A stretch of DNA of 64,000 nucleotides from Thamnidium elegans (taxonomy: Eukaryota; Mucoromycota; Mucoromycetes; Mucorales; Mucoraceae): assembly GCA_025201345.1 (NCBI GenBank), contig JAIXMG010000018.1:663234-727233 (forward strand), written 5' to 3'. Of this stretch, positions 46,874-64,000 are shown one piece after another. The notes beneath the pieces are model-generated. The model had not been told where the DNA came from. It made no database searches and saw only the letters and a program-made list of their open reading frames with translations. Position numbers and translations under genes: made by a program. How positions within the stretch are numbered: position 1 is the first letter of the stretch; every line of letters starts with the position of its first letter.

Positions 46874-48969
46874 TGTATGTATGATGAAAGAGGGGGAGCA
46901 AATCCTGATAATCGCTTTCTTGCTTTCTTTACATCAAAGCAGAAAAAAACTGAAGCACGTGACTTTTCCGGGAATAAAAAAATTCAAGCGGGCCGGACAA
47001 TAAATGATTTTTTTTTTTTTTTTTACGTGGTAAGCCTCTCCACTTTTTGTAATAAATGGTATATTTAAACTCATAAAAATGATTTAGATCAAGAAATATT
47101 AATGAATTTTCTATCTTATCCTTTTGATAATGTTTTAGAGATTTTTTAGAGCAAATAATTGTAAATGTATAAACTACACAGAGAATACGGAATAAGTTAT
47201 CCACATATTTTTAGTCTCAGCCAAGGCATGCCACAAGCTAAAGCAACAAACAAGTATTAAGCTTTATATTACAGGAAGAGCTTCTCGTGATTTACGGCTT
47301 AAATGTCTATTTCAATAATATTTTCTTTCTTTTCAATTTATCCAGATATGGTGCACTAGCTTCTGTGATGAGTAGTTCTAAGTCATTATAAGTAGTAATC
47401 CCATATGCTTTGTAACAGAACTTTTTACCTGATCAATAATCATAGCCTCCAAATCGATTTCACCCGGGCAAAAATACGGTTAACTACGGATATATTATCA
47501 GATACAGCTTATAAAAAAGGGTGTAAAAAGGTACTGGTGTAGTACACTTCCTTTCAGCTCATGCCTGGTTTATTACGAAGAGTTTCGGTCCTAGATATAA
47601 AAATAATTAGAAAAGAGACATTGTTCATTAATACGAATACCCTCTTACTTTGACTAAAAAAAACTTTTAAAAATTCCGACAGTCAATCGCATCCCTTTTA
47701 TACGTTATGAGTGTTTTTAAGATCAATGTATATGAATGAATTTATTTTTAAATACTTAACTACTTCCTGTTCATCATCATTCTTATCATTATCGTCAGTC
47801 TCAAGTTTAGTAATATCTTTTAAGCAATCCAGGGGAATTTCTTAGTGCACGCTCTATTACACACTTAGAAAAGAAAGTATGGCGTATTGCTTTTTTACAT
47901 ACATTTATAAAGTGTTAAAAAAAAGTAGCTTGATAACTTTCGATATTATATTCGGGTAGATATCCAACTTCTTCATTTGATAAATTTAACTCCGTATCTT
48001 TCTCATCTTCTAAAGCAGAGTAATAATTGTGAAGCTTAAACTTAGGCACGAAGTACTTAATGCTGACTGGACCATTATCTGTTCCCAAAAACGTAAAATT
48101 CACCGAACCACATTTGAGCTCTCGTAACAAGTGCTCTTATACACGGCCGTTGCTTTGAACCGTATCCGTTTGTACGTACATAAAAGAAGATCAAAAAACT
48201 AAAAAAAAAAAAAAAAAAAAAGCAGAATAATCAATACGTATTAAGTCGATAAAATAAGCTCATGCGATCTATTTAATCATTTTTATATACATGTTTACAC
48301 TTGTTGTGCATATTAATGGGAGTATGCACAATGTGCTGGCTGGTGAATTTTCAAACAGAAAATTTGACCTATGGAAATTTACTTCGAATCGCTCGAAGAT
48401 ACTAAGATAATCGAAGGCTATTTTAGATCATATAGTTGATCAAGAATTTACCACAGGACACAAAACGCGAAAGTTATTGGCATTATACTTTCAAGTCAAC
48501 AGCTTAGATGGAGAGGTCAAAGCTACGAAACTTTGCTCTCCCGGCTTGTATACCGTACAACATATAGGTTCAGTAGATACTCTTAACCTTTTATTTATTT
48601 CTCTTACTTAATCAATAAAGTTTACGCTACAGTGCATCTATTTTAAAATCGAATTTGTTTATACAACGGTCATTTTTTGCGGGTTATATACTCTTACCTT
48701 TTTTTGGACAAAGTAAATAAATTTTTGGTCATTTCCAAATTAGATTGGGACAAGGTTACAAAATTGGGACACAGAAGGAAATATGAAATGCAGAAGGGAA
48801 TATGGGACAGCAATAGGAAAACAGAATACAGATTCAAAAATAGGGCATATTGAGTGTTAGTATATATCAAGTTTCTATTAGTCATGTATTTATACACTCT
48901 CTTACCTGTAGCAATCTTTAAGTTTTTTGTCCGAAGACGCGAAACAACCACGTTCTATGTGGCGCGTTG
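46874..48969. other. Gene-poor region downstream of the Fanzor gene
   Basis: No intact gene. At 47915-48130 (-) a 71-codon reading with protein-like texture (LKCGSVNFTFLGTDNGPVSI, KFKLHNYYSALEDE) is preceded by a stop and is probably a decayed gene fragment of unknown family. At 48747-48809 repeated GGGACA and CAGAAGG(A/G)AATAT motifs lie downstream of the Fanzor stop and are discussed as a finding. Confidence 0.4.
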
Positions 48970-51723
48970 TCAATTTTGACGTGTAAAAATTGTTGGTCGG
49001 TCCATACCAGCCCAGATCTGGCATGCGATGAACATCATATTTTTTGCAGCGAGGATATCTCTATTCCAAAATATATTACAATCGTTGCAGATCAATATAT
49101 TAAAGAAAGATTTGTCGTCAACTTTATGAGTTCTAAGCTTCATTTCTTTGCAATTTGGACAGACCTATTTTATAGAAGGATAATTAATTGACTTAATAAG
49201 CGCTTAATTGTATTGTAATAATTTACAGAAGAGGTCCGGAACTCATTTATATCAAGCAATAACACCTCCCCGAGGTTTTGTCTTCTTTTTAAATTCTTAT
49301 AGATGACATCAGAAACGCCAACTCGTCGTCCTTTGTACTTCACATGGCTACTCCCTTTTAAACCATCACCGAAAATCACCAAAGGCATCTTTGTTCTGTC
49401 CCCTTCAACGAAATGACTTTTGTGGTTAGTCCGTCTAAAATATAAATGGATGTTAGTAAGATGATCATATACTTGGAAAATATACTATTACTTTATTTCT
49501 ATTGGTAGATTGCGAGAATCGAGAGTTCGTCGGTTGACCATTTTTTTTCGTTTCCGTCTATTTGATTTTGTTTTCTTTCTTCGATTGGGGTTATATTTTT
49601 TCCCACCATTAATCAGAATATTGCAAGCTTCTTCGAGGGCACATTGCCTTCCATAATAATTGTTCCATTTAATTGAAGCTGTTCTGAAGTCATAAAAATT
49701 AAAAAAAACGCCTCAAATGAGTCAGTACATATGTTAGGTGGTTGATGTAAGAATCAACAGAAGAAGTTTTAGTCGTTGGGATTTGAGTCTCTAGATCCTT
49801 TATGCCTTGTTCGATTTTGAAGGTATCTTGTTTTCTTGCTCGATTTACAGATCCAGAAGAGCAATAGTATTCATTTACTGTCAGAGACCTGACCTGTTCA
49901 TTTCCATAATATGCCACATATGCATTCTTACGGCCAGGGTCTAGAAAACAAGGACGGAAAAAGTTTTCAATTTCGTCTGCGTTGAAATCTGCGATTTCAA
50001 GATTGACTTTATCTTCTTCAAGAGTTTCTGGGACACTCCTTGCAAAAGAAATTCTACAGGTATATCCATCAGTGTATATACTGTTCAAGAACATCCGTCT
50101 TTTCTGTCTTGGTAATTCTTGTAATTTTGTCAAGCTATTGTAATAAATATTAATAATGATCTTAATTGGGAGAGGGGGGGTTAAAAAAAACTTACTTTCT
50201 GATTTTCAGCTTGGTAAAATCGAAAGAATTGAAAAAGCAACGTGTAGCGAGTGCGAAATTTGTTTCGTTTTCTTCTCTTTGAAGCCGTGTATCAGGGAAA
50301 AGAGTTGACAAATTTTGACCATCAATCTTTATGAACCGCCATTTAAGACTAGGATTTGGAAAAAGAGAAAACAAGCGAGGCCTCTGGGGTTGTCGTATTC
50401 GTGTCTGAGGACGGACTAACTCAACCGTTTGAGCCGGCGGTTGCTCTGTTGTTTGTTCTAGTAGCTCTTCTGACTGTTCTGGCTGCGCATTTTCCTGAAG
50501 TTGTATATTGACCTGCTCATAGAATTCGATAATATAAGTCATTATCGATAGAACAATGAACGGGTTTTTGGTCACTTCTTCTCTTGAAAGTGGGAGCCGA
50601 GGTGCTCTGTTTCTAACTGGCTGAATGATATCGTTTAAAAATGCCTGTAGATTTGGGGCACTATTAAGACCATCTTGTGTAATAAAATCTTCTGGCATAT
50701 CTGACCTTGTGTCGTTCTTTAAGACTTCATCTAAGACATAATCATATACAATCTTTTTTACAAGTGGCATTTTAATATTCTTATAAATAAAGTTCATGAG
50801 TATAATAGTTATGTAAACTAGTATTTTTGTTAATACTTACAGTATACTCCTGCTTTAGTCTGTATATAAAATAGTTTCCAATATACGTTTCATAATTTTC
50901 CACGTAGAAGTTATTATAGGCAGTAGCTACAGTATCACAAGCAGACAAAACAATTTGGCCATACCCCACTAGACCTTCTCTTTCAACTAAAAGATTGACA
51001 TTTTCTAACGCTTGTAAATGGTTATAGGCTTCTTGAATGCCAGGAAGTCTTGGATAAAAGTTTTGTAGTTCTTGAATGGTGATTTTCCCATAAATTAATC
51101 TACAAACTCTGTACCAGAAGTTTTTTTCAAATATATCATTTGAGAGATACTCAACATTGTTGTTTGCATTATTTAAAATATAATAATTAACTAAAAGCTG
51201 TGCTTTATAAACAACCTCTCGTAAAAATGAAGACTGTGTAATTATTCTCTTGATATTCTAATAGTTTGTTCGGATTCCCTTCATCTTGCCTGATGAATGA
51301 TTTAAGCGTTATAGAAACGGTATACAATTGATAAGAAGTAGGGAAATCCATTGCTAATCTTTCTTTGATAGTATATTCATGGTTGGGGCATAAACGAGAA
51401 GCAGAAGTAGTATGACCAGGTTGGCTACAGGACTTGCAAACAGGTCCAGAAGATGAAGAATCCTGTTCTATTCTTCTTCTTTTTCTTGCATCCGCCTTGG
51501 CTTTTTTCTCCTCTGGTGTGTCTTTTTTTCTTTTATCTGAGTCAATATAGCAGTTAGATAAAGTTATCAATATAATCAATAAAATTCACAGAAACTGTTA
51601 TAGTTCAATGTTACCTCTTCTTCTATTGCTAGATTGCCTTTCCTCTCCAACACGTACCTGAAACTTCTGTTGCTTTTTATTTCGAATTAGTTCTTCTGTT
51701 TCAGGATAGATAATAGGACGCAT
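48970..51723 (-). pseudogene. Fanzor RNA-guided nuclease (TnpB homologue), two frame breaks
   Basis: Six exons (51615-51723, 50841-51536, 50196-50779, 49492-50134, 49227-49434, 48970-49164) give about 810 residues if two single-base frame breaks are set aside. One break is near 51240 (after NKLLEY), the other is at the A8 run 49702-49709 (T8 on the coding strand). Seen: an N-terminal basic region, a zinc knuckle C-X2-C-X4-H-X7-C (CKSCSQPGH...C), helical regions (FLREVVYKAQLLVNYYI), then RuvC-I CFLDPGRKNAYVAYYG with its Asp, and a basic stretch KKYNPNRRKKTKSNRRKRKK. The RuvC-II strand LVIFGDG lacks the usual Glu. An alternative Glu is in LLDINEFRTS about 42 residues later, as described for Fanzor proteins. 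A zinc ribbon (VCPNC, ICNDC) and RuvC-III WNRDILAAKNM with Asp complete it. Introns are canonical. Family: Fanzor, guided by an omega-like RNA. Whether this copy is dead or the breaks are sequencing errors is open. Confidence 0.82.
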
Positions 51724-51774
51724 TAAGATATTTAGGTAAAAAAAAAAAAAGAAAGAGAAAAACATAACGTGCAT

Positions 51775-52263
51775 CTACTTTATAATAAACTTTTTGGAAT
51801 TACAATTCCGACTCCTAATATGGATATTGGCATTTAAAACTGCCTTTTGAAGCTTTGAGAACTCTTTTACGAGAGAAAATGCCTCAGCAACATCTTTTTC
51901 GTTACTGTAAGCTTCAATGTACCGGAAGCTTTTGTTGAAGTAACGACGGATTTGCAAAGGGATCTCTCCAGGTTGGTTCACGCTATCAAGAAAACTATTG
52001 ATGTTGTTATCGAGAGAGCGGAAATTGTAGTTACAATTCCGTCTCGCTATTTTTTTGCTGGCTCTCCAGAAACGTTCAATGGGGTTACATTCACAATGAT
52101 GCCGAGGGTAAAGTTCGAAAATATGACCTGCTTTTTCAATAGCTTCAGCCAAGATTGATTTTTGCTCTATGAAATCAGGCTGACTGCCAAGCAAATGAAC
52201 CGCACAACATTCATGGTTGGCAGCTTCTACATTGTTGCAATATCTGTTTTGACTACCGAACAA
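51775..52263 (-). pseudogene. 5'-truncated DDE transposase
   Basis: A 162-codon reading, ending at a stop 51 bp before the Fanzor start codon and on the same strand, matches the C-terminal half of a DDE transposase family common in fungi: CCAVHLLGSQPDF, KAGHIFELYPRHHCECNPIE with the third catalytic acid (Glu), ERFWRASKKIAR, then a Tyr/Ser-rich helical end. In-frame coding texture extends upstream to about 52283 (GIKEILTQRN), preceded by an acceptor-like TTTCATAG. The parts with the first two catalytic Asp were not found. The superfamily was not determined (Tc1/mariner-IS630-like or another DDE type). It may be the donor element that once carried the Fanzor gene, or an unrelated insertion. Confidence 0.65.
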
Positions 52264-52283
52264 ATTTCTTTGTGTTAATATTT

Positions 52284-55200
52284 CTTTAATACCTATGAAA
52301 TATGTTTTTATCTCATTATTCTATTTTTTAAATAAATCAAACGAGTTAAACGAAAATTTCTATATATATATAATTTGAAATCTAAGAATGGATAATTATA
52401 AACTTACGGGATGAACGTTTTTCATAATTGCATCAAATTTCACAACTTTATCAGCCCTGGAAATTTTGCTAAATCTAAGCTTTTGTAGCTCGGGGGTAGT
52501 TGAAATTTCTTTCAACGTAAAAACTTTGACGTTTCTCTACACTTAAATGTTTATGTTGCGTAGATAAATTTATTACTGTATATTTAAACGCAGGTATGTG
52601 ATATTATTGGGCCGTAATACTAATTTGGGGAGGTCATTTGTAGACTTCTCTGCCTAAAGAGCCAAACTTCAAATCGATATTTTTCACGAAAAAAACCACA
52701 AAGACAAAAAAACACTTCGGCATATCTCTTTGTGATCTTATTTATAATGTTAAACTGCAATTAATTTATGTTAAAAGTGTTTTGCCGTCGAGTATTATAG
52801 AAAATAAAAAAATACGAAAAATCGGAGTTAGTAGAGTTTATTATAAAGTAGATGCACGCTAATTCAAAATAGTAATTATAATAATAACAATAAGTCACAA
52901 GATTATATATGTAGAGTGAAATAAACACAGGGCATCTTTAACTGACTCTCAAAGATATTTTCATATACTTCTATTTCATTCTAGCGTGCTTTCACAATTA
53001 AGTTACAAGCAAGCTATTTATATATATATATTTAAACCGTTGATATTAGGTAGTGTTTATAGCTGCGGTACGTAACTGAAGCGTTAACAGAGGTTTCTCA
53101 TTTAAATACAAGACATATTTTTGTATGAATCCCATTTTCTTTACAAAAACAATATACTCCTTATATACTGCTCTGTAGTTTCATTTATTACCACTTGCAG
53201 TCTCTAGACTTATTAAATTCTCGAGTAAATTAATTATTTCATAATGCATGAAAACTAGGTCTAGTAGCTGCAACTTAACCAAAGTTGTATCAAAAAGGCC
53301 ATACTTACGCAAACCTAGAAATGCTCCAGTTACAAGTACTTCCTGGTCTTGTGTCACCATTAGGTCAGTCTGCATCACAGGCTCATGCGTTCTTGAAAGC
53401 TTAGACCATTCTTAAGCAACCTGATCAGATCAATACAGTGATTCTACTGCCAATTTAAGAATTTGATAATAATAATAAAAAAAAATGAGGAGTATAAAGA
53501 ACTATTTTTGTGCTTTTAATGAAAAAATGTAGCTTGAAATTCGAACTTAAATTCGCAGACTCTTACAAAATAAAATTGCTTATAATTATAATGAATCTCA
53601 AAGGGCTTTGTTTTTATCACGGATAATGTTAAAAGTCTGGACAAAACTAGCTACCGCATACGATATTCCTGCTAAGCATCTTCTGGGTCCGATACAATGA
53701 AGCTGACAACAATAATGGTAATATAAATAAACTGAAAAAAAAATGTTGTCCCCTTTTTTTCTTTTTTTCTTTTTCTTTACGCATTATTATTTATAATTAT
53801 ATAATGGTAATAATACATAACATATTATACTTTAACTAATAGTCTTAATATTAATACATTCATGGTAGATCGTATGATGGTCTCTCTTCTAATATTGATG
53901 GCTATTTATGTGTGAATGACTTCTTGGTTGCACTTCCGTATTAAAAGGTTACTTTATACTGACTACTGTTACGCTTCTACTGCTGAATTTTGGGCCGAGT
54001 GATGGTATACTTGAACTAAGGACTGGCCCTTAATAATTCTGTCCTTGCTGTTAAATGTTTTTTCTTGCTTGTAAATATCATCACTTGTTGGTAATGTTCT
54101 CTGATTATTTTTGAAAAAAGGTTGTCACTTTCCCTTTCTTTCATTAATCATTTATTTTGATTTATAATAGGTATGTATGCATTTGATTACTTAAGCTACT
54201 TTAAATAGTTTTTGTTTATTGCAGATGCGTGGTTCTGCTCATATTAAGAAAGGAAATCAAAAGTAAGTGTCGCATGTACAAGGCGTCGCAAAAAGTTAAC
54301 ATTTCCTTCTACTTTTGTACGGTTATTCAAGATCACCAAGGCGTCTCTTGTTACTATTAACGTGCTCAAAAAATGTGACGGTGGGCCTTTTCACGGCTGA
54401 TGTGCTTCTTAAGACTGGTATTTATTCAAGACCTACAAGGTTCCCCCCTCCTATCACTCTTTGGAAAAGGTTTAATTAAGTCTGTGGTTCATTTATGGTT
54501 TAACTTGCTGTGTTTCTTCAAGGCTAATGTTCATCACTATTCACAAAAATATTTCCCCTCTCATTGGTTCAAGACTGGTGTCGTACTCAAGACCTCTGGT
54601 GTTTCTATCCCTCCCCCCCCCCTCAAGGCTGGGGCATTTAAATAACATTCTGTTAGCTCGCACTGAACTAAACACAATTTATATCGCTTGCTTTAAGGTG
54701 CTTCTCTTTGGAATGCTTTATGAACGCGTAAGTGATTTTTCATCCTGATATGTCTAACATATTTTAATATATGTATCATTGGAGTTACCAAATGATCGCA
54801 TACGATGTATTTGTAACTGGTTACAAACTGATTTTTTTTAGTAGTATTCTGTTTATCTTACAGGCTGGTTGGTGCAAATGTCTTCAAAACAATAAAGTAC
54901 TGCTTACGCTGGACCTCTGGCTAGGATACGGATGCTTCTAAAGAAAGTGACGCTGAAGTTATTTTAATCATCGTACCAAACACGGTTTCCTCTGCCGAGG
55001 ATTTATTTTATTACAGGTAAAAAAAGGAGTTGGGAGAGAGTGAGGAACATTTAAAAACTTTAAATTGCTTTTTTTTCTAAAAATAAATTAAAAAAAATCG
55101 TATGAGAATATTAAATGAACTGTCAATATCCCTTGTGTACTGTGTAGCAAAGCCGTCATTTTTCGTTAAAATGGTAACACCTTAATATACGTATTAAAAT

Positions 55201-56549
55201 ACCTCCAAGTGATAGTGAACTTTTACGAGTTCGATACTTTGACTTAAGCATGCATGGAGGGATAGTCTTTGTCATTGTACAAGTTATTAGTATCGTTGGT
55301 AATAAAATCTAGTGGATTAGTGGACATCACTTTTGGTCTCATTATCTATGTTTGGTAATAGGATCTAGTAATATATGCTACACATAATATAGGAAGAAAG
55401 ATGTTATACAGTGACGGGTTCAAATGGTTCATAAGATATATAGGTCGTTTGAGCCGAGTTTTGTAATGATCCTCACTGAGAATAACTGTATACTCAAAAT
55501 ACATTACAAGTTTATATATGTATATACTTAATAAATATATATATATATATATATTTATACTACATATCTTAATACCAATAAATTTTATCTAGTTTTTTTT
55601 TTGGTAGATTTAACACTTTATCTGAAAATAAAAACGACGTTTCACGAAATCTGGAATAACTACAGGCACCACAACACAGTAATGTACATCACAAAAGAAG
55701 TTGCGGATTTAATTATCCTTCTCTTGACGTACTAACCAACACAATTTATTTATAAAAAAAAAATTCGTCGCCTAACAGAAACTGTTTTTTTTTTGGTTTT
55801 AGCGTGATTAGTTAATATTTTCATAATCAAACTCCCAAAGCTCTTTATACCTTTGGAAAGAGAACTTAATTCTTCGAAAAAAGTTACATATAGTAAAAAC
55901 CTCTTCTCCCCCCAAAAAGCTGTAACTGTTATCGCTCACTAGATCGACCATTTTTTTGGTAACTTTCTTTAAAAATCGAAAAAATCGAATCTGATAGTAC
56001 CTTAAATGATTCTGCACCTTTTTTTTTTTTTTTTTTCATAAATCGGTGATAATAGCCTAGTTTTATAATGATCCACGGAGAAATAAACCGTAATACAAAA
56101 GTAGATATAAAAAAAAAGTGTAAATTAACATTTTCAAAAGAATTATTTACAGAACAAGAGTTCTTTTTGTTCGCACCCCCCTATCAAAGGTTTTTAAAGT
56201 TTTTATCTGACATTTAAGTATGACTGTCACTTCTATGACACTTTATCTTGGGAAAAAAAGTAGTTATCAATTGATATGCCAATATAATAATTTTCTTGTA
56301 TAACCATGGGAGAAAATTATGGTAATCTAATCACGTTGAATAAAAATTGTTTTTGGAACTTTCGGTGAACATTGTCCTTTTGAAATAGATCAAATTTGTA
56401 TATAATTTGTTATTATCAATTTAGTTTTTGATCGTTATCGCAAAAGCATCTTAATTAACAATAAACGCGAGTATTATGTAATAACATTAAATTCAGCAAA
56501 AAATAATAAATTTTTTCTCTTGTCGCGTGCTCCTTTTCTTTAGAAAACC

Positions 56550-56593
<44 letters not shown>

Positions 56594-57491
56594 TATATTT
56601 TCTGATTTAATCTACTAAATGATTCTGGTGTAATATCCCTTATCAAATGATGTAATCTGTTTGATTACTCTAGTTTTGTGCCCATGAGAAATCCGAGAGC
56701 TTTTTCCAAGAGACCTTTATTTGCATGATCGAAAGTAAACATTGATAAAAAAACACGTAATGTCAAACTTTACTTGTCTTTTTTAGGTTAAAAAAAGACA
56801 AGACAAAAATCATACGGGGCTAAAATAAAAATCACGTTAATAAAATCATATATTTATATCCAAAACCTACATTCGTTTAATTCCCTCCCCCAAAAGGCCA
56901 CGTTTATTCGGGCTTTTTTTTTTTTCTTTTATCGGATTAAAAAAAACACTATCGGATATGATCTCTTACCCTTAATTTTTTTCATAATTGAGCGGACTCA
57001 CGGAGTTTTGATTTACTTTTTTTTTAAAAAAAAAAGTTTTTTTTCTTGTACAGCAAAAAATAATAATTGCATTATAAGAATTATTAAATAAGAAAAGAGA
57101 GTAATACGTTTAGTTTTGAAACTGGGATCAATCGTTATATAAGTGTGCGGGGGGAGAATAAGAATTTTTTTTATGCCCACAAAAAAATTACCCATTTTTA
57201 CCATAATTTTCCCACCAAACTGTAGTACAATCAACCAAGTAAATTTGGCGATACACAAGAAAAAAGAGAGGAAAAAGATAACTTTAGATTGACTTTTTAG
57301 ACGCGCTCATGATAATAAAAATGATCAATTGGAGATTGAATTGATGTAAAACCCCTGTGGAATACGATAAGATGTCTTGCGGATTATATAATTTTTTTGT
57401 TTTTATTATATATATAACCACAAAAAAAAAAAAAAAACTTTCCTATTTCTTCTTTTCTTGTTTTTTTTAATTATAATTATAATAAAAAAAA
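52284..57491. other. 5.2 kb accessory DNA without an intact gene
   Basis: AT-rich, with scattered coding-like pieces that do not assemble: 53181-53378 (-; VLVTGAFLGLRKYGLFDTTL), about 53548-53699 (+; SQRALFLSRIMLKVWTKLAT), 54222-54262 (+; MRGSAHIKKGNQK between splice-like sites) and 55808-56017 (-). At 54400-54640 degenerate repeats of the type TTCAAGACTGGTGT with C-runs occur. A T40 tract lies at 56553-56592. A TATATATATAACC box at about 57406-57418 and a T-rich leader precede pyruvate kinase. Confidence 0.4.
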
Positions 57492-59100
57492 ATGTTCACC
57501 GACAATAAGATTGCTCAGCCTCCAATTCAATTCCCCATGCAATGGGTCGCCAACATGGATGTTGATATTCAACCCAAGGCAGCTCGTAAAACATCTATTA
57601 TCTGTACTATTGGTCCCAAAACCAACAATGTCGATAAGCTTACTGAATTAATTGATGCCGGTATGAACATTGTTCGTATGAACTTTTCTCATGGTGATTA
57701 TGGTTACCACAAGTCTGTTCTTGATAACGCTCGTGCTGCTGCTTCCAGTAAGTATAAAAAAAAAAAAATGAAATAATAATTTTTTTTTAACAAATAAATT
57801 TTTTTTTTTCATAGATCGTCCCGATAAGGTCATTGCTATTGCCCTCGATACTAAGGGTCCCGAGATTCGTACTGGTATGATGGCCAACGATGTTGAAGTA
57901 TCTATTCCCAAGGGTCATGAAATGAACATTACCACTGACGAAAAGTACGCCAATGCTTGTGATGGTGAAAACATGTATGTTGATTATAAGAACTTACCCA
58001 AGGTTATTGAAGTTGGTAAGAATATTTTTGTTGATGATGGTGTTCTTTCCTTCAAGGTTATTTCCAAGGGAGAAGATTATGTTCGTGTACAAGCCGAGAA
58101 CAACGGTAAGCTCTGTTCCAAGAAGGGTGTTAACCTTCCCAAGACTGCTGTTGATCTTCCTGCTCTTTCCGAAAAGGATAAGAATGATCTTAGATTTGGT
58201 GTTGAAAACGGTGTTGATATGATTTTTGCATCATTCATTCGTCGTGCACAAGATGTTAAGGATATTCGTCGTGTTCTTGGTGATAAGGGAAAGAACGTCA
58301 AGATTATTAGTAAGATTGAGAACCATCAAGGTATTGTTAACTTTGATGAAATTCTTGCTGAAACTGACGGTGTTATGATTGCTCGTGGTGATATGGGTAT
58401 TGAAATTCCTTGTGAACGTGTATTTGTTGCTCAAAAGATGATGATCGCCAAGTGTAACTTGGTTGGTAAGCCCGTTGCTTGTGCCACTCAAATGCTCGAA
58501 TCTATGACTTTCAACCCTCGTCCTACTCGTGCTGAAGTTTCTGATGTTGCTAACGCTGTTCTTGATGGTGCTGATCTTGTTATGCTTTCTGGTGAGACTG
58601 CTAAAGGTTCTTATCCTCTTGAAGCAGTTAACACTATGGCTACCACATGTGAACTTGCTGAATCTGTCATTTGTTATGCTCCCCTCTTTAACCAACTTCG
58701 TGGTTTAACCTCTTGGCCTACTGATACAACTGAGACTGTTGCTTGTGCTGCTGTCTCTGCTGCTGCTGAACAAAATGCAGGTGCCATTATTGTACTTTCC
58801 AAATCTGGTCATTCTGCTCGTCTTGCATCCAAGTATAGACCTGCTCAACCTATTATCCTTGTTACCCGTGAAGAACAAACTGCTCGTCAATCTCATCTTC
58901 ATCGTGGTGTTTTTCCCTTTGTATACTCTGGTGATGTTGCATCCAAGTGGGATGAAGATGTTGAATCTCGTATCAAGTGGGGTATTCAACAAGGTAAGAA
59001 GTCTGGTCTTATCAAATCTAATGATCCTGTTGTCATCGTTCAAGGTTGGAAGGGTGGTCTTGGTAACACAAACACTGTCCGTGTTTTGATTGCCCCATAA
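57492..59100 (+). CDS. PYK1: Pyruvate kinase
   Basis: Two exons (57492-57747 and 57815-59100) encode 513 residues. Conserved blocks: [87 protein letters not shown] with the catalytic Lys, [41 protein letters not shown], and [12 protein letters not shown]. It catalyses the last step of glycolysis, PEP plus ADP to pyruvate plus ATP, in the cytosol. Codon use is strongly biased, as expected for high expression. The only intron follows AAAS in the N-terminal domain. The start codon follows an A-rich leader and a TATA box about 75 bp upstream. Confidence 0.97.
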
Positions 59101-60017
59101 ATTACTTTCCTAAATTATATATAGCTCATTTTCAAAAAAAAAAAAAAAAAAAAAGCATTTATTTTATCCTTTTTTTCTTTTTTTCCCCACATCTCATTTA
59201 CATAAGTATATTTTTTTATATATATTTGTTTTTAATAAATTTTTTATCTCATCATTTTCATATATATAATTTTTTTTTTTTTTTTTCCAATGAGAATTTT
59301 TTTTTCTCTTTTCTGTTTATATTGTATACAGTCTTGTTTATTTACCAAATACAGCTTAGACTTCATTTTTGGGTTCGTGCATTTTAGCTCACGGTTTTAC
59401 TTGAAACTCGACAAATAGGTTTTTTCTTTTAATAAATGCAAGGTTTGAGTGTGGCCACCAATGAAAGTTGAACCTACATTTTTTTCTTTTTTAACAATTG
59501 ATAACTATACTAGTTATGAATAAAAAGGAGTTTTTTTTCTTAGCACTACATTTTGTAAATTAGATATGCAGTTGATAGGCGGTTACACGAGTTAAGGTAT
59601 GCCTCATTTTTAAAAAAAAAAGAAACTTGGCGTATCCATGGAAATGCAATATACAAGTTTCTGGGAGAGCCCTTTTCTTTATATATATATTGGCTTTTAG
59701 CTGCATATACTGTACATATATAGTTCAATGAATTAACAAGTACTACTATCACTCGTAATATAAAGTTGTATTGTATCCGTGTTTGGGCTTTCATGACGAT
59801 TGTGACGGTCTGGTCACACGATACGACCTTAAAAAGTAATGTGAAAAAAAAGCTGCAAGCCATCAAAAAAAAAAAAAAAAGTATTTAATCATGTCCATAA
59901 ACTAAAGAGTTTCGGACAATCTTTTTTTTTTTTTTTCCTTTTTCCTTTTTTTTATTTTTTTTCCTTTTATTTCTTGACATAGATACATAGTAAGAAGTGA
60001 GATTAAATAAATAAATA
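59101..60017. other. Intergenic region
   Basis: 3' flank of pyruvate kinase followed by T-rich stretches (59925-59970). No gene was recognised; short readings on both strands look random. Confidence 0.5.
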
Positions 60018-60841
60018 TAATGGGTACAACGACAAGTAGAGAAAACAATTTCTACTCGGTTAAAGTATCGACGTAAATTACCTTCACTAAGATCATCACG
60101 GCGTAAAGACTCAACATCAACCGATTCTAACTGTGCTAGTCCAACACTCACGATAGAACCTAAACGTAACGTACGTCAACCTATTCCAGTTAAATTGATT
60201 AAACACCAAGTTGTACTCTCTGATCATGTTCCACCAATGTCTTCACTTTCAGCTGTAACTTCTATACCAGTACGTCGTTCATCATGGATAAAAAGTCTCA
60301 ACTCAACTGCAACCAGAACTATTACAGATAACACAAGTTATACATCTTCTTCTTCCTTTTATGACGATGATGACGATGAACTTGTATCTTCACCTCGAAC
60401 CTCTTTAGGTTCACAAGATCATGGATTTTTAAAAGAAGAATATAAAAAAAAGAAAAAATCTTCGTCATTTTATCCATTTATTTCTAAAAGTAATCATCAA
60501 TATAATAATAAAAACGAAAAGTGATATTATTTTTGAATCAAGGTATGTTAGTTCACCAAGTTTAACTTCAAAAGAAACTATTCCGATACTACTAAAAGGT
60601 CCACGAAGACCTTTTTGGTACATAATAATAACGATGAAAAAGAATACGATAGGTATATATACACATACACATATATACACAGTTAAAAATAATAAAAATT
60701 AAAACCTTTTACTACTTGTAATCATATAGACAATTACGACAGGTAAATAACATATTTATAAAAACACACGTGAAATTCGTTTATAACTTTGCATTACCAT
60801 TACCATTACCATTACCATTACCATTACCATTACCATTACCA

Positions 60842-60913
<72 letters not shown>

Positions 60914-61827
60914 CAAAATAGCATTATGTATTAAAGCATATTTTAGACGGGAACATCCATGTGCCTGTGGCAATGGATAAGCCAATTACAGTATTAGATG
61001 CAGCGTGCGGCGCAGGGTTTTGGACACTCGATATAGCGCACACGTTTCCTAATGCTAAAGTAATTGGGTTAGACGCATTTCCGGTGGATGATAAGCGTAT
61101 GAAAGGTCATTCAAATACCATTTCAGCACCTAATATTGTATACAAGTACGGCGATCTTACTACTCATTTACCATTACCTGATAACTATTTGGATCATTTA
61201 TCAACGTGATACTACTTCTATCATGCCACATGAAAGATGGCCATTTTTATTAGATGAGTTAATGAGAGTGGCTAAACCAGGAGGTTATATAGAATTAGTA
61301 GAATATAGTAAATAGTCAATATGCACACTTTTAATATTTTTTTTTTCTTTCTAATGTATTTTCTTTTTTAGGCTTTGTTATTAACAATCCTGGGCCAGTG
61401 TTGGCTCTAGTGAAACGAGTGGTACAAGATTGTCACAACATCGATTGGTGTAGACCCTAAAGAAGCAAAGCATTTAAAACATATGATGATTACGGCTGGG
61501 TTTCAAGATGTTGACAAAAAAGTTATCACTGTTCCAATTGGTGAATGGCCAGAAGATGAAGGTTTGTTTTTTTATAATTTTTTTTTTACTAAACTATCTT
61601 ATATTATTTATTTATTATTTTAGATGAGAGAGAAAAGGGCTTTTTTATATAAACAAGTGATTAAAGCGCTGTTTAAATCGATGAAGTCGTGGTGGATATC
61701 TGAACTAGCTATATCTGCACAAGAATACGATAAAGTTGTAACTGATGCAATGGATGAATTTGATGAACAGTGTTGTTCATTAGATTGGGTAATATATACC
61801 GCTAGAAAACCATTTACATCATTCTAG
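60018..61827 (+). pseudogene. SAM-dependent methyltransferase (UMTA-like), several frame breaks
   Basis: Exon-like pieces keep the order of a Mucorales UMTA/LaeA-like methyltransferase. They are a Ser-rich N-terminus (60090-60524; SSWIKSLNSTATRT), 60535-60652 (ending in an EKEYDR codon series), a 13-nt exon 60730-60742 (RQLRQ), 60922-61307, 61372-61561 and 61624-61827. Motif I is intact (ITVLDAACGAGFWTLDIA), as are LPLPDNY, MRVAKPGGYIELVEY, GEWPED and WWISELAISAQEYDK. The frame breaks near 60055, 60515, 60620, 61200 (two bases missing), 61410 (one-base change) and in the T6 run near 61643. Splice sites remain good, so the decay is recent, or the sequence carries base-calling indels. The substrate is unknown. 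Confidence 0.7.
60792..60913. repeat. (CATTAC)9 followed by T68
   Basis: Nine perfect hexamers CATTAC at 60792-60845 are followed directly by 68 T (60846-60913), all inside an intron of the broken methyltransferase gene. The acceptor CAAAATAG lies 8 bp beyond. Confidence 0.95.
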
Positions 61828-61993
61828 TTTTTATTTTTATTTTTTTTACGTGTAATATATTCGCTGGTTCGAAATACTTTTATATATACTGCATATATGC
61901 CTATTTTTTTTCGCACTAAAAATACCCTTTATTTTAATTTTTATACACACATATATATATTAAAGAAAAAATATATTAATAATAACAATCTAT

Positions 61994-63210
61994 CTATCGC
62001 CGTAAAAGAGGAGGAGGTACAAACACATTCACCTTTTCATCCCATGCGCAAGTTGCCACTTGACCTTCTACGTAAAGATTAAAATCAAGACCAAGCACAA
62101 ATTCAGTATGTGCATCGTGTACATGAATTAAATTTTGTCCAAGGGGAGCAGCTGTATCCCAAAAACGAACACTCATGTCATAGGCAGCACTTGCCAAAAT
62201 GTTGGGTCTGTGAGGAGACCATTTTACACGACGTACAGCAAATTCATGTCCAGGTAAACAAATCACTTCTCGATCAGGGCGGCGTAAATCCCATACTTTA
62301 ATCGTTTTATCAACTGAGCCTGTAACTAGCATATTTCTTGATACTTGTTCCAATCAAGTGATAGAATTTCGTTATTATGAGCACGAATGGTTTGTGCTGA
62401 TCTAGGGCTGTTGGTATCCCAAATCTTTACTGTTTGATCTCCAGATGCAGAAGCAAGACGTGTAGGACTATAAGGTGACCAAGCTGTACTATAAACACAG
62501 TGTGTATGTTCAGTATATGTTTGTAAAGATCTTGGTGATTGAGGATTCCACTAACAAACGAAAAAAAAATCAGATTTTATATATTCGTCCCTTTTTTATT
62601 TCTTTCACTACTTACAATCTTTACTGTATGATCCCAAGAACCACTAGAGAATACATTTTTAGAAACCAAGTTCCAATCAACAGAAAATACTTCACGTTGG
62701 TGTTCTTGCCAATTTTGAATAGGATGATCCTATACACACATATATAAAAAAAGTTGCTTAATTATCAGTAATTTTTTCTACACACTCTCTTACTTGAATT
62801 CCATGCTTACAGCTAAAGTTGTATCCCACATTTTAATCGAACCGTCACCACTAGATACAATAAGTTGGTTCTCATTAACTTCACTCCATGCAACATCGTA
62901 TAAACCATCTTGAGTGTCATAACTAAGGTATTTACAAGTACGAAAATAAATAAATAATAATAATAATAAAAAAACGACAACAGAAATTTTACGCTCTTTC
63001 AATAGCCATTCCTTCTCCTTGAGCAGCCATAATAAATAATCTACCATTACCAACTAGACCGAAGTTAGAAGCCGTTGCAACCGCAAGTTTGTTTTCAAAA
63101 AAGGGACTCCACTTGGTCTATTTATTTCTATTAGTTTATGTACTTGCTAATTTTTATATACACTTACAGAGTATCCGTTAAAAACCCTCGGTACGAAATT
63201 GTGTAAACAT
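61994..63210 (-). CDS. PEX7: Peroxisomal PTS2 receptor PEX7 (WD40), two homopolymer frame breaks
   Basis: Five exons (63168-63210, 62993-63117, 62811-62922, 62616-62729, 61994-62550) correspond to about 316 residues of WD repeats. Typical PEX7 text: [99 protein letters not shown] and a final [15 protein letters not shown]7 binds the PTS2 signal of matrix proteins in the cytosol and brings them to the peroxisome. Two single-base frame breaks occur in homopolymers: one surplus base in the T5 run near 63180 (A run on the plus strand), and one missing base near 62338 in GAAATATG. Exon borders are otherwise intact. Because PEX7 is usually single-copy and conserved, sequencing error is at least as likely as gene loss. 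Confidence 0.88.
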
Positions 63211-63986
63211 GTTAAAAATAAGAAAAAGGTAAAGGTAAGAAAGAAAGAGACTGAGAGGGGGCCAAAATAAAAAAGGAAAAATAAATAAGGTTCCTTGATG
63301 TTTTGGTATTCAAGCTGACTACTCTTTTTTTCATCACACTTGGGTGAGAGAGAATTTAAACTGACCAGCATTTATCTTTTTCGCCATTTTAATTTAGCTG
63401 TTGACAGATGAATAGCAAGCTATTTAAACAATCATATCTGCTATAAAAAAAAAGTATTCTTTTAACGTATTTGTATCGATTATTGCGTATAAAAAGATAT
63501 ACACTCACACACACACACACATATATATATATATGTACGTGACATCAAATACTTTAGTTTGATATTTATTCCAACTTAATTTTCACATGTGAAGCTCCTT
63601 TTCCCCACAGATAATAGTCAATTGTTTGAATTTGGAGCAAAAATTCAAAACTATGCAAAGAAATAGTCGTTATAGTACAAGAGTACCTTATCACCAGGGT
63701 AACAAATATATATATATATAAAAGAGTATTTATTTTGCTGCTAGAAAGTACTTTTTTTTTTTTTTTTTTTTTTTTCTAGTAAATCCTTCTATTAGCAATT
63801 AACTAGAATTCGGTTCGAGATATCTGCTTGTCATATAATGTCATCTTCATAAAAAAAAAAGGCGGGTATGTATTTAAGCATCACAAGTTTCGTTTTCCTC
63901 ACGTGTTGCGGGATTTTTATTATAATTATTTAACAGTGGTTTCTCCCCTTTCTCTTTTTTTTTCTTATAAATAATAATAATACAAA
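63211..63986. other. Divergent promoter region
   Basis: Upstream of PEX7 (-) and of the gene starting at 63987 (+). Holds (CA)n and (TA)n runs (63505-63534, 63706-63720), a T26 tract around 63750-63776, and a pyrimidine-rich stretch before 63987. Confidence 0.5.
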
Positions 63987-64000
63987 ATGGGTAAAAAAAA
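63987..64000 (+). CDS. Start of a gene cut by the window end
   Basis: ATGGGTAAAAAAAA follows a pyrimidine-rich tract and an AATAATAATAATAC leader, the same context as other starts here. MGKK is common for ribosomal proteins, but G|GTAAAA could also be a donor site after a very short first exon. Identity cannot be decided. Confidence 0.4.

Follow-up and report, generated by a model that had tools for sequence, protein, structure and literature searches.

What does a transposon gain from carrying an RNA-guided nuclease of the Fanzor type? The question is raised by a 64,000-nt stretch of contig JAIXMG010000018.1 (positions 663,234 to 727,233 of the forward strand; hereafter the window) from Thamnidium elegans, a saprobe mould, in which a Fanzor gene lies inside a multicopy element flanked by TA dinucleotides. 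We consider it quite probable that a Fanzor1 gene was captured here by a Tc1/mariner-type transposon operating by the mechanism proposed below. Elements of this kind are already known, and the flanks of the Thamnidium copies hint at the DNA motif that the enzyme would read. The benefit of Fanzors to their carrier transposons is described as an unanswered question (PMC10432273). The role of the Fanzor becomes testable in the Thamnidium family, which is present in many copies, includes a transposase and deletion derivatives, has well-defined ends and shows a bias in one flank only.

A Fanzor1 gene with five introns

An earlier note on this stretch had described a Fanzor locus of six exons with canonical splice sites and about 810 residues, and the splice map bears this out. 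The gene runs on the minus strand from its start codon at 51723 to its TGA stop codon at 48970, in exons at 51615..51723, 50841..51536, 50196..50779, 49492..50134, 49227..49434 and 48970..49164, separated by five GT-AG introns of 78, 61, 61, 57 and 62 nt; piecewise translation of the exons, with an X at each of two frame breaks, yields 809 residues. Exon 2 encodes a zinc knuckle (CKSCSQPGH...C), exon 4 the RuvC-I motif FLDPGRK (position 526, with D528) and the basic block GKKYNPNRRKK, exon 5 VIFGDG (695) and the alternative catalytic Glu in DINEFRTS (737, with E740), and exon 6 a C4 zinc ribbon (CPNC at 747, CNDC at 771) and RuvC-III WNRDILAAKNM (778, with D781). The reading frame shifts once in exon 2 (at about 51240-51265) and once in exon 4 (at about 49700-49730), in agreement with the two breaks noted earlier; each may be a single base, as then stated, and may be either a true mutation or a consensus error.

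The identity of the product was assessed by profile searches and alignment. The spliced translation reaches 30.0 bits against the Pfam TNB profile PF07282 (cut-off 26.3), and exon 6 by itself only 22.2 bits, because an intron splits the TNB domain; for the same reason a genome scan with this profile, which returned 21 places, 19 of them above the cut-off (L001-L008, L046 and L047 being among the Fanzor-like TNB loci), gave none at the gene in the window. The SpuFz1 chain 8gkh in PDB was matched at E 4.7e-6 by the single sequence and at 1.1e-18 by a profile with seven relatives, and D528, E740 and D781 align to its chain positions 777, 935 and 1000. Subtracting 394 throughout, an offset set at D383 and borne out by the other two positions, turns these into D383, E541 and D606, the residues named as catalytic in SpuFz1 (PMC10432273, PMC11423790). 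All three acids are thus kept, as had been claimed.

The Fanzor1 motif given by Bao and Jurka, D-X(125,275)-[TS][TS]-X-X-C4 zinc finger-X(5,50)-RD (PMC3627910), is found as D528, TSSVC at 743-747, C747/C750/C771/C774, five residues and R780-D781. The two signatures of the Fanzor RuvC domain, DPG and the alternative Glu (PMC10711439), are both present, in FLDPGRK and in DINEFRTS with E740 on SpuFz1 E541. In addition, the protein is large and resides in a TA-flanked element. The adjacent transposase is DDE-like, which points away from an IS607-type (Fanzor2) element, where a serine recombinase accompanies a compact TnpB-like protein, although no search aimed at serine recombinases was made. Judged by these motifs and alignments, the gene in the window is a Fanzor1, far beyond a chance match.

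A search of 5.8 billion proteins gave 24 relatives at E <= 0.001 among 4950 candidates, and the 23 that carry an organism name all come from genera of the Mucorales. Relatives (among P0003-P0024) in Mucor, Gilbertella, Rhizopus, Benjaminiella and Helicostylum have a similar architecture, with 27-55% identity outside Thamnidium. D528 and D781 are invariant across the 8 rows of one alignment (A4); the model P0013 is without E740, and the gene models of several relatives are truncated. In a second alignment (A1) of 15 rows, four of which are without the zinc-knuckle stretch, CxxCxxxGH is found in 10 of the 11 rows that retain it, the window's included. By this comparison the zinc knuckle and the basic block, singled out previously as extra features, are features of the Mucorales clade and not peculiar to the window copy.

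The introns had also been taken as a sign of residence in a fungus, which receives indirect support: L047, from a second Fanzor family of the same genome, has intron-like inserts at two positions shared with the window gene, and introns 2 and 3 are spliced as predicted in two public gene models of T. elegans, P0001 and P0002.

A composite element with a nested transposase unit

The Fanzor reading of the earlier note is supported, and the gene turns out to belong to something larger: it forms one part of a multicopy element in which a transposase unit is nested. The composite spans 4,230 bp on the minus strand (48630..52859), and copies 97-99% identical to it share these ends. A TA, the putative target-site duplication, lies at its right end, 3' of the Fanzor gene (48628..48629), where TA is found at 17/17 right ends and is followed by variable bases, and at its left, transposase end (52860..52861), placed by alignment of copy ends; in all 15 copies with both ends readable TA is present at both.

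The transposase unit, which we call unit B, occupies 1,093 bp at the left edge (51767..52859, minus strand) and has TA on both sides (51765-51766 and 52860-52861). Its inner terminal inverted repeat (TIR; 51767..51791, plus strand) faces the outer one (52835..52859, minus strand), which also serves as the left end of the whole element; over 27 nt, 51765-51791 is 96% complementary to 52835-52861. Unit A consists of the Fanzor gene with its 3' region, closed at the right by a diverged B-like TIR (48630..48660, minus strand; CAGTGCATCTATTTTAAAATC...) that has the subterminal ACGGTCATTTTT in common with the end of unit B. On its left, unit A shows no inverted end that would belong to it alone; among the 15 copies whose left end could be read, 13 begin with a B end.

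Unit B in the window contains a probable remnant of a DDE transposase (51775..52320, minus strand; HHCECNPIERFW) with a weak DDE_3 score of 16.7 bits, which does not reach the cut-off of 28.6. This short version of B is found in the window and seven other copies; five copies have a long version, with extra sequence at about 52541, longer open frames and more of the transposase. The relatives of one long-B piece, 155 in number, include among the best 120 proteins with PF13358 (DDE_3) and a Tc1-like DDE name. The element is TA-flanked and multicopy, probably of the Tc1/mariner type, with a B end on the left and a B-like end on unit A at the right.

Copies, probable excisions and derivatives

Copies were sought with window positions 47500-53500 as the query, and only the best candidates were scored, which makes every copy number a minimum. 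The genome has at least 17 right ends, corresponding to 17 of 19 pattern hits; the hits at C12:1208763 and C26:426358 (2 and 3 mismatches) were dropped, as the same sequence runs on past the supposed end. A control with reversed patterns yielded 0 hits for both end patterns.

Two copies, L035 and L037, contain TTA-GT-TATG in place of unit B, that is, GT between two TAs, as if B had left two bases behind. These copies probably mark excisions of B, and two separate excisions are likely, because their flanks differ and they are not each other's closest copies in the copy tree (22.2 mismatches per 1000). L041 and L042, at different sites on contig C1, have lost most of the Fanzor gene through the same deletion and keep the right end; to judge from their sequences, they are a non-autonomous derivative that moved. 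Of L043 only the last ~70 bp of unit A are left, and L044 is a solo B end. In L040 (C56:900400-908700) unit B stands in the opposite orientation to the Fanzor unit, and the T described below is absent from the left flank. The right flanks of L038 and L042 start alike (TA-GAACCGTT...), resembling the element's own subterminal stretch, perhaps reflecting insertion beside a related end.

Thirteen copies bear the gene, counting L038 and L040 with deletions and L039 with an insertion, and leaving out the partial L041, L042 and L045; all five GT-AG introns are retained in 11 of them. In the copy tree the inner branches are short; most copies differ by 1-2.5%, and one pair of deleted copies by 3.6%. 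From this, together with the even spread of substitutions over codon positions given below, we infer that the copies are relics of one burst followed by neutral decay.

A one-sided T at insertion sites

The left flank of the element is distinguished by a single base. At 14 distinct sites, the base before the left TA (52862 in the window, minus strand) is T in 13, the exception being the A in L040 with its inverted B, whereas 34% of TA dinucleotides in the window are preceded by T (n = 5981); the binomial probability is 7.8e-6, or about 2e-4 after correction for 24 positions. The mirror base, A after the right TA, occurs in 2/16 distinct flanks (left versus right, Fisher 2.2e-5), and among the 12 positions viewed on either side no other is comparable to the left T. 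The left statistics leave out L029, whose flank is the same as that of the window, and L039, L044 and L045, which have no usable left end; the right statistics leave out L033, whose flank is the same as that of L031, and L044, which has no right end.

Tc1/mariner transposases read a target symmetric about the TA, so that a one-sided T is unexpected. Since it lies on the side on which TnpB and Fanzor proteins read their target-adjacent motif (TAM), and since the known Fanzor1 TAMs are CATA, TTAA and ATN (PMC10432273, PMC11423790), the bias predicts a 5'-TTA TAM for the Thamnidium enzyme, with the T at 52862 as its first base. It also suggests that Fanzor cutting may have shaped which insertions persisted. 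The one-sided T is a new lead beyond the known Fanzor and mariner elements, and it allows a TAM (TTA) to be predicted, together with a scaffold in the last ~94 nt, ahead of experiment.

A candidate guide RNA scaffold

Between the stop codon and the right end, three noncoding blocks on the minus strand stand out in comparison with more distant Fanzor families of the genome (L004, L046, L047, L052, L053 and the low end of L038), with which they are shared in whole or in part. Block 1, TAG-AACGTGGTTGTT, lies just past the stop (48943..48957) and is common, in whole or in part, to L046, L052, L053 and the second family inside L038; block 2, TTAAAGATTGCTACAGGTAAG (48901..48921), is common to L052, L004 and the second family inside L038; and block 3, TTTATTTACTTTGTCC-A7-GGTA (48695..48721), emerged from cross-family comparison and lies ~85 nt before the right end both in the window family and in L047. 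Not all families carry all three blocks, and the readable right ends (L046, L047, L053) differ from that of the window family; the second family, L046 and L047, has 3' noncoding blocks in common with the window family and a different right end.

We propose the segment from 48721 to 48628, the last ~94 nt, as a candidate for the minimal guide RNA scaffold, with the guide coming from the flank below 48628. Known Fanzor1 guide RNAs measure 75, 90 and 150 nt (PMC11423790), and the predicted Fanzor1 scaffold includes the TIR and the target-site duplication (PMC10711439). As a search pattern block 3 is not specific by itself, with 29 hits versus 11 in the reversed control, and an Rfam search over the window at the gathering threshold gave 0 matches.

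Two further observations concern this region. Several Mucor and Rhizopus relatives have ATSNVV near the C-terminus, and in the window the same stretch (48943-48960) reads A-T-stop-N-V-V-V, after the upstream stop, which suggests that the nucleotides may be constrained here rather than a protein tail. In L029, the copy on contig C11, a ~19-nt minisatellite (CATCTCATATTCCCTTCTG) is expanded between blocks 2 and 3 in comparison with the window copy.

Proposed mechanism and alternative explanations

In the mechanism we propose for the captured Fanzor1, unit A would move only together with unit B: a B-type transposase would cut at the left end of B and the right end of A and paste the composite into a TA. 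The guide RNA of the Fanzor would begin in the 3' noncoding region, run across the right end and the TA and continue into the flank. With it the Fanzor would cleave the unoccupied allele, in which 5'-TTA adjoins that flank, and the occupied chromosome would then serve as the repair template, so that the element is kept or copied, as has been proposed for TnpB and its insertion sequences. A more far-reaching reading is that the insertion sites carry an imprint of natural Fanzor activity, in that only insertions with 5'-TTA on the TAM side persisted or spread, and that RNA-guided cutting of the empty allele aided the retention or copying of a cut-and-paste DDE transposon. This reading we put forward as a tentative and, on present evidence, rather unlikely extension.

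A number of results weigh against capture by such a transposon or against its proposed operation. In Pfam searches at E up to 0.5, none of three transposase pieces from long-B copies matched a DDE family; only the piece from the window matched DDE_3, below the cut-off. Empty sites were not found, as the three joined flanks searched (of 15 built) gave only the occupied locus. Folding of six 3' stretches as single sequences was no better than that of shuffles (z -0.70 to 1.05), and the hairpin pairing of block 3, compared by eye, is not kept in family 2. Only three B ends free of Fanzor (L044, L048 and L049) serve as controls for the flanking base, with A, A and T, respectively, outside the TA. 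Finally, in this assembly the spliced frame is interrupted in all 13 gene-bearing copies, the window included, and the distinct substitutions of 12 copies versus the window fall evenly on codon positions 1, 2 and 3 (75/68/77); no selection is read from a dN/dS-like figure of 0.7.

The strongest rival account makes the Fanzor only a passenger, without influence on where or whether the element persists, and traces the one-sided T to the transposase, which would prefer such targets when it works on two unlike ends. The closed frames and even codon positions speak for it, as does the movement of derivatives without an intact Fanzor, exemplified by the single deletion of L041 and L042 at two sites, although derivatives could use a Fanzor in trans; and a target normally symmetric about the TA is difficult to reconcile with a T in 13/14 left flanks and the mirror A in 2/16 right ones. 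We regard the passenger explanation as a serious possibility, if one that falls somewhat short of even chances. Much less probable is that the T simply belongs to the element end and carries no TAM imprint. It is constant in all 13 distinct sites where B is in standard orientation or excised, as an end base would be, yet it is unlikely to be part of the end because the three other B-type ends just mentioned read A, A and T; moreover, A is found at the inner B ends next to unit A and in L040, where B is inverted, and the right end has no matching base.

The same lack of open frames and evenness of codon positions would be expected if the family consisted entirely of dead pseudogenes, with every frame break a true mutation. 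Against this, 12 of the 27 distinct small indels in exons have a homopolymer of at least 5 no more than 8 nt away, compared with 10% of exon sites, and the window's contig (C10) and C11 differ by indels where they are without substitutions, a sign of consensus noise. Some of the frame breaks may therefore be consensus error, and they are not proven mutations; a wholly dead family seems to us a somewhat doubtful, if substantial, alternative. The comparison with C11 also bears on the locus itself. From inside the element to at least position 60000, hardly any difference separates the window from C11 (99.95% identity over the 2-kb flank and, rounded, 100% over 7 kb), and in the first ~1.25 kb of the element the two contigs show zero substitutions and five indel events, followed by 1-2% divergence. 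C19 and C21 have a common right flank in the same manner, and contigs C10 and C21 end 7-11 kb past the element, C10 at ~11 kb. Such a pattern would arise if the assembler had run C10 through the repeat into C11 sequence, in which case this combination of gene and flank would be absent from the fungus; the same picture would result from a genuine recent event running through the element, be it duplication, translocation or conversion, and the Fanzor body and the left flank in the window are C10's own. Between the two, we lean slightly toward an assembler join, and hence toward a chimeric window locus.

Relation to known Fanzor elements

A full-text literature search, in a collection lacking most subscription papers and bioRxiv preprints as such, found no paper that names both Fanzor and Thamnidium. 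In 2013 Bao and Jurka reported Mariner elements that carry Fanzor1 and have TA duplications, PGv-1, PUl-1 and PUl-4 (PMC3627910), and the Thamnidium element resembles them in combining Fanzor1 with a probable Mariner-type transposase or its TIRs and with putative TA target-site duplications. It differs from them, as far as the passages on them show, in that a transposase unit with its own inverted ends sits at the left edge and the Fanzor unit provides the right end, and in the GT footprints and deletion derivatives.

With SpuFz1 and its element Spu-1 from Spizellomyces punctatus, the Thamnidium family shares the aligned catalytic D-E-D and the presence of ghost copies retaining the right end, the deletion copies L041, L042 and L043 resembling the ghost loci of SpuFz1; by analogy with Spu-1, the left flank would be the TAM side and the right flank the guide side (PMC10432273). 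In contrast, no transposase is reported within the ends of Spu-1 in that text, and its TAM is CATA, whereas the Thamnidium element contains a transposase and its predicted TAM is TTA (PMC10432273). The Thamnidium protein, with its 809 residues, is further distinguished from SpuFz1 by the zinc knuckle and the basic insertion in RuvC. The TAM of GtFz1, TTAA, begins with the predicted TTA (PMC11423790); one sentence of that paper swaps the TAMs of SpuFz1 and GtFz1, while its later text assigns TTAA to GtFz1, and CATA is given for SpuFz1 in PMC10432273. Another Fanzor1 from the Mucorales is PpFz1 of Parasitella parasitica (PMC11423790). An FRI domain of the PpFz1 type was not found by sequence comparison, and the sequence matches obtained at E up to 1 did not include any chain bearing the name Parasitella.

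Neighborhood of the element

Window positions 51500-64000, which begin inside the element and run past its left, transposase end, correspond to C11:624000-632463 as a near-identical duplication of the end of C10, compared up to window position 60000 and probably due to the assembler join or recent duplication discussed above. The duplicated stretch holds an open frame (57772-59100) resembling pyruvate kinase, named by eye. Beside the element, positions 53434-55025 have many partial copies of 65-89% identity across the genome and represent another repeat family. Farther along, at 60792-60913, nine perfect copies of CATTAC are followed by a run of 68 T.

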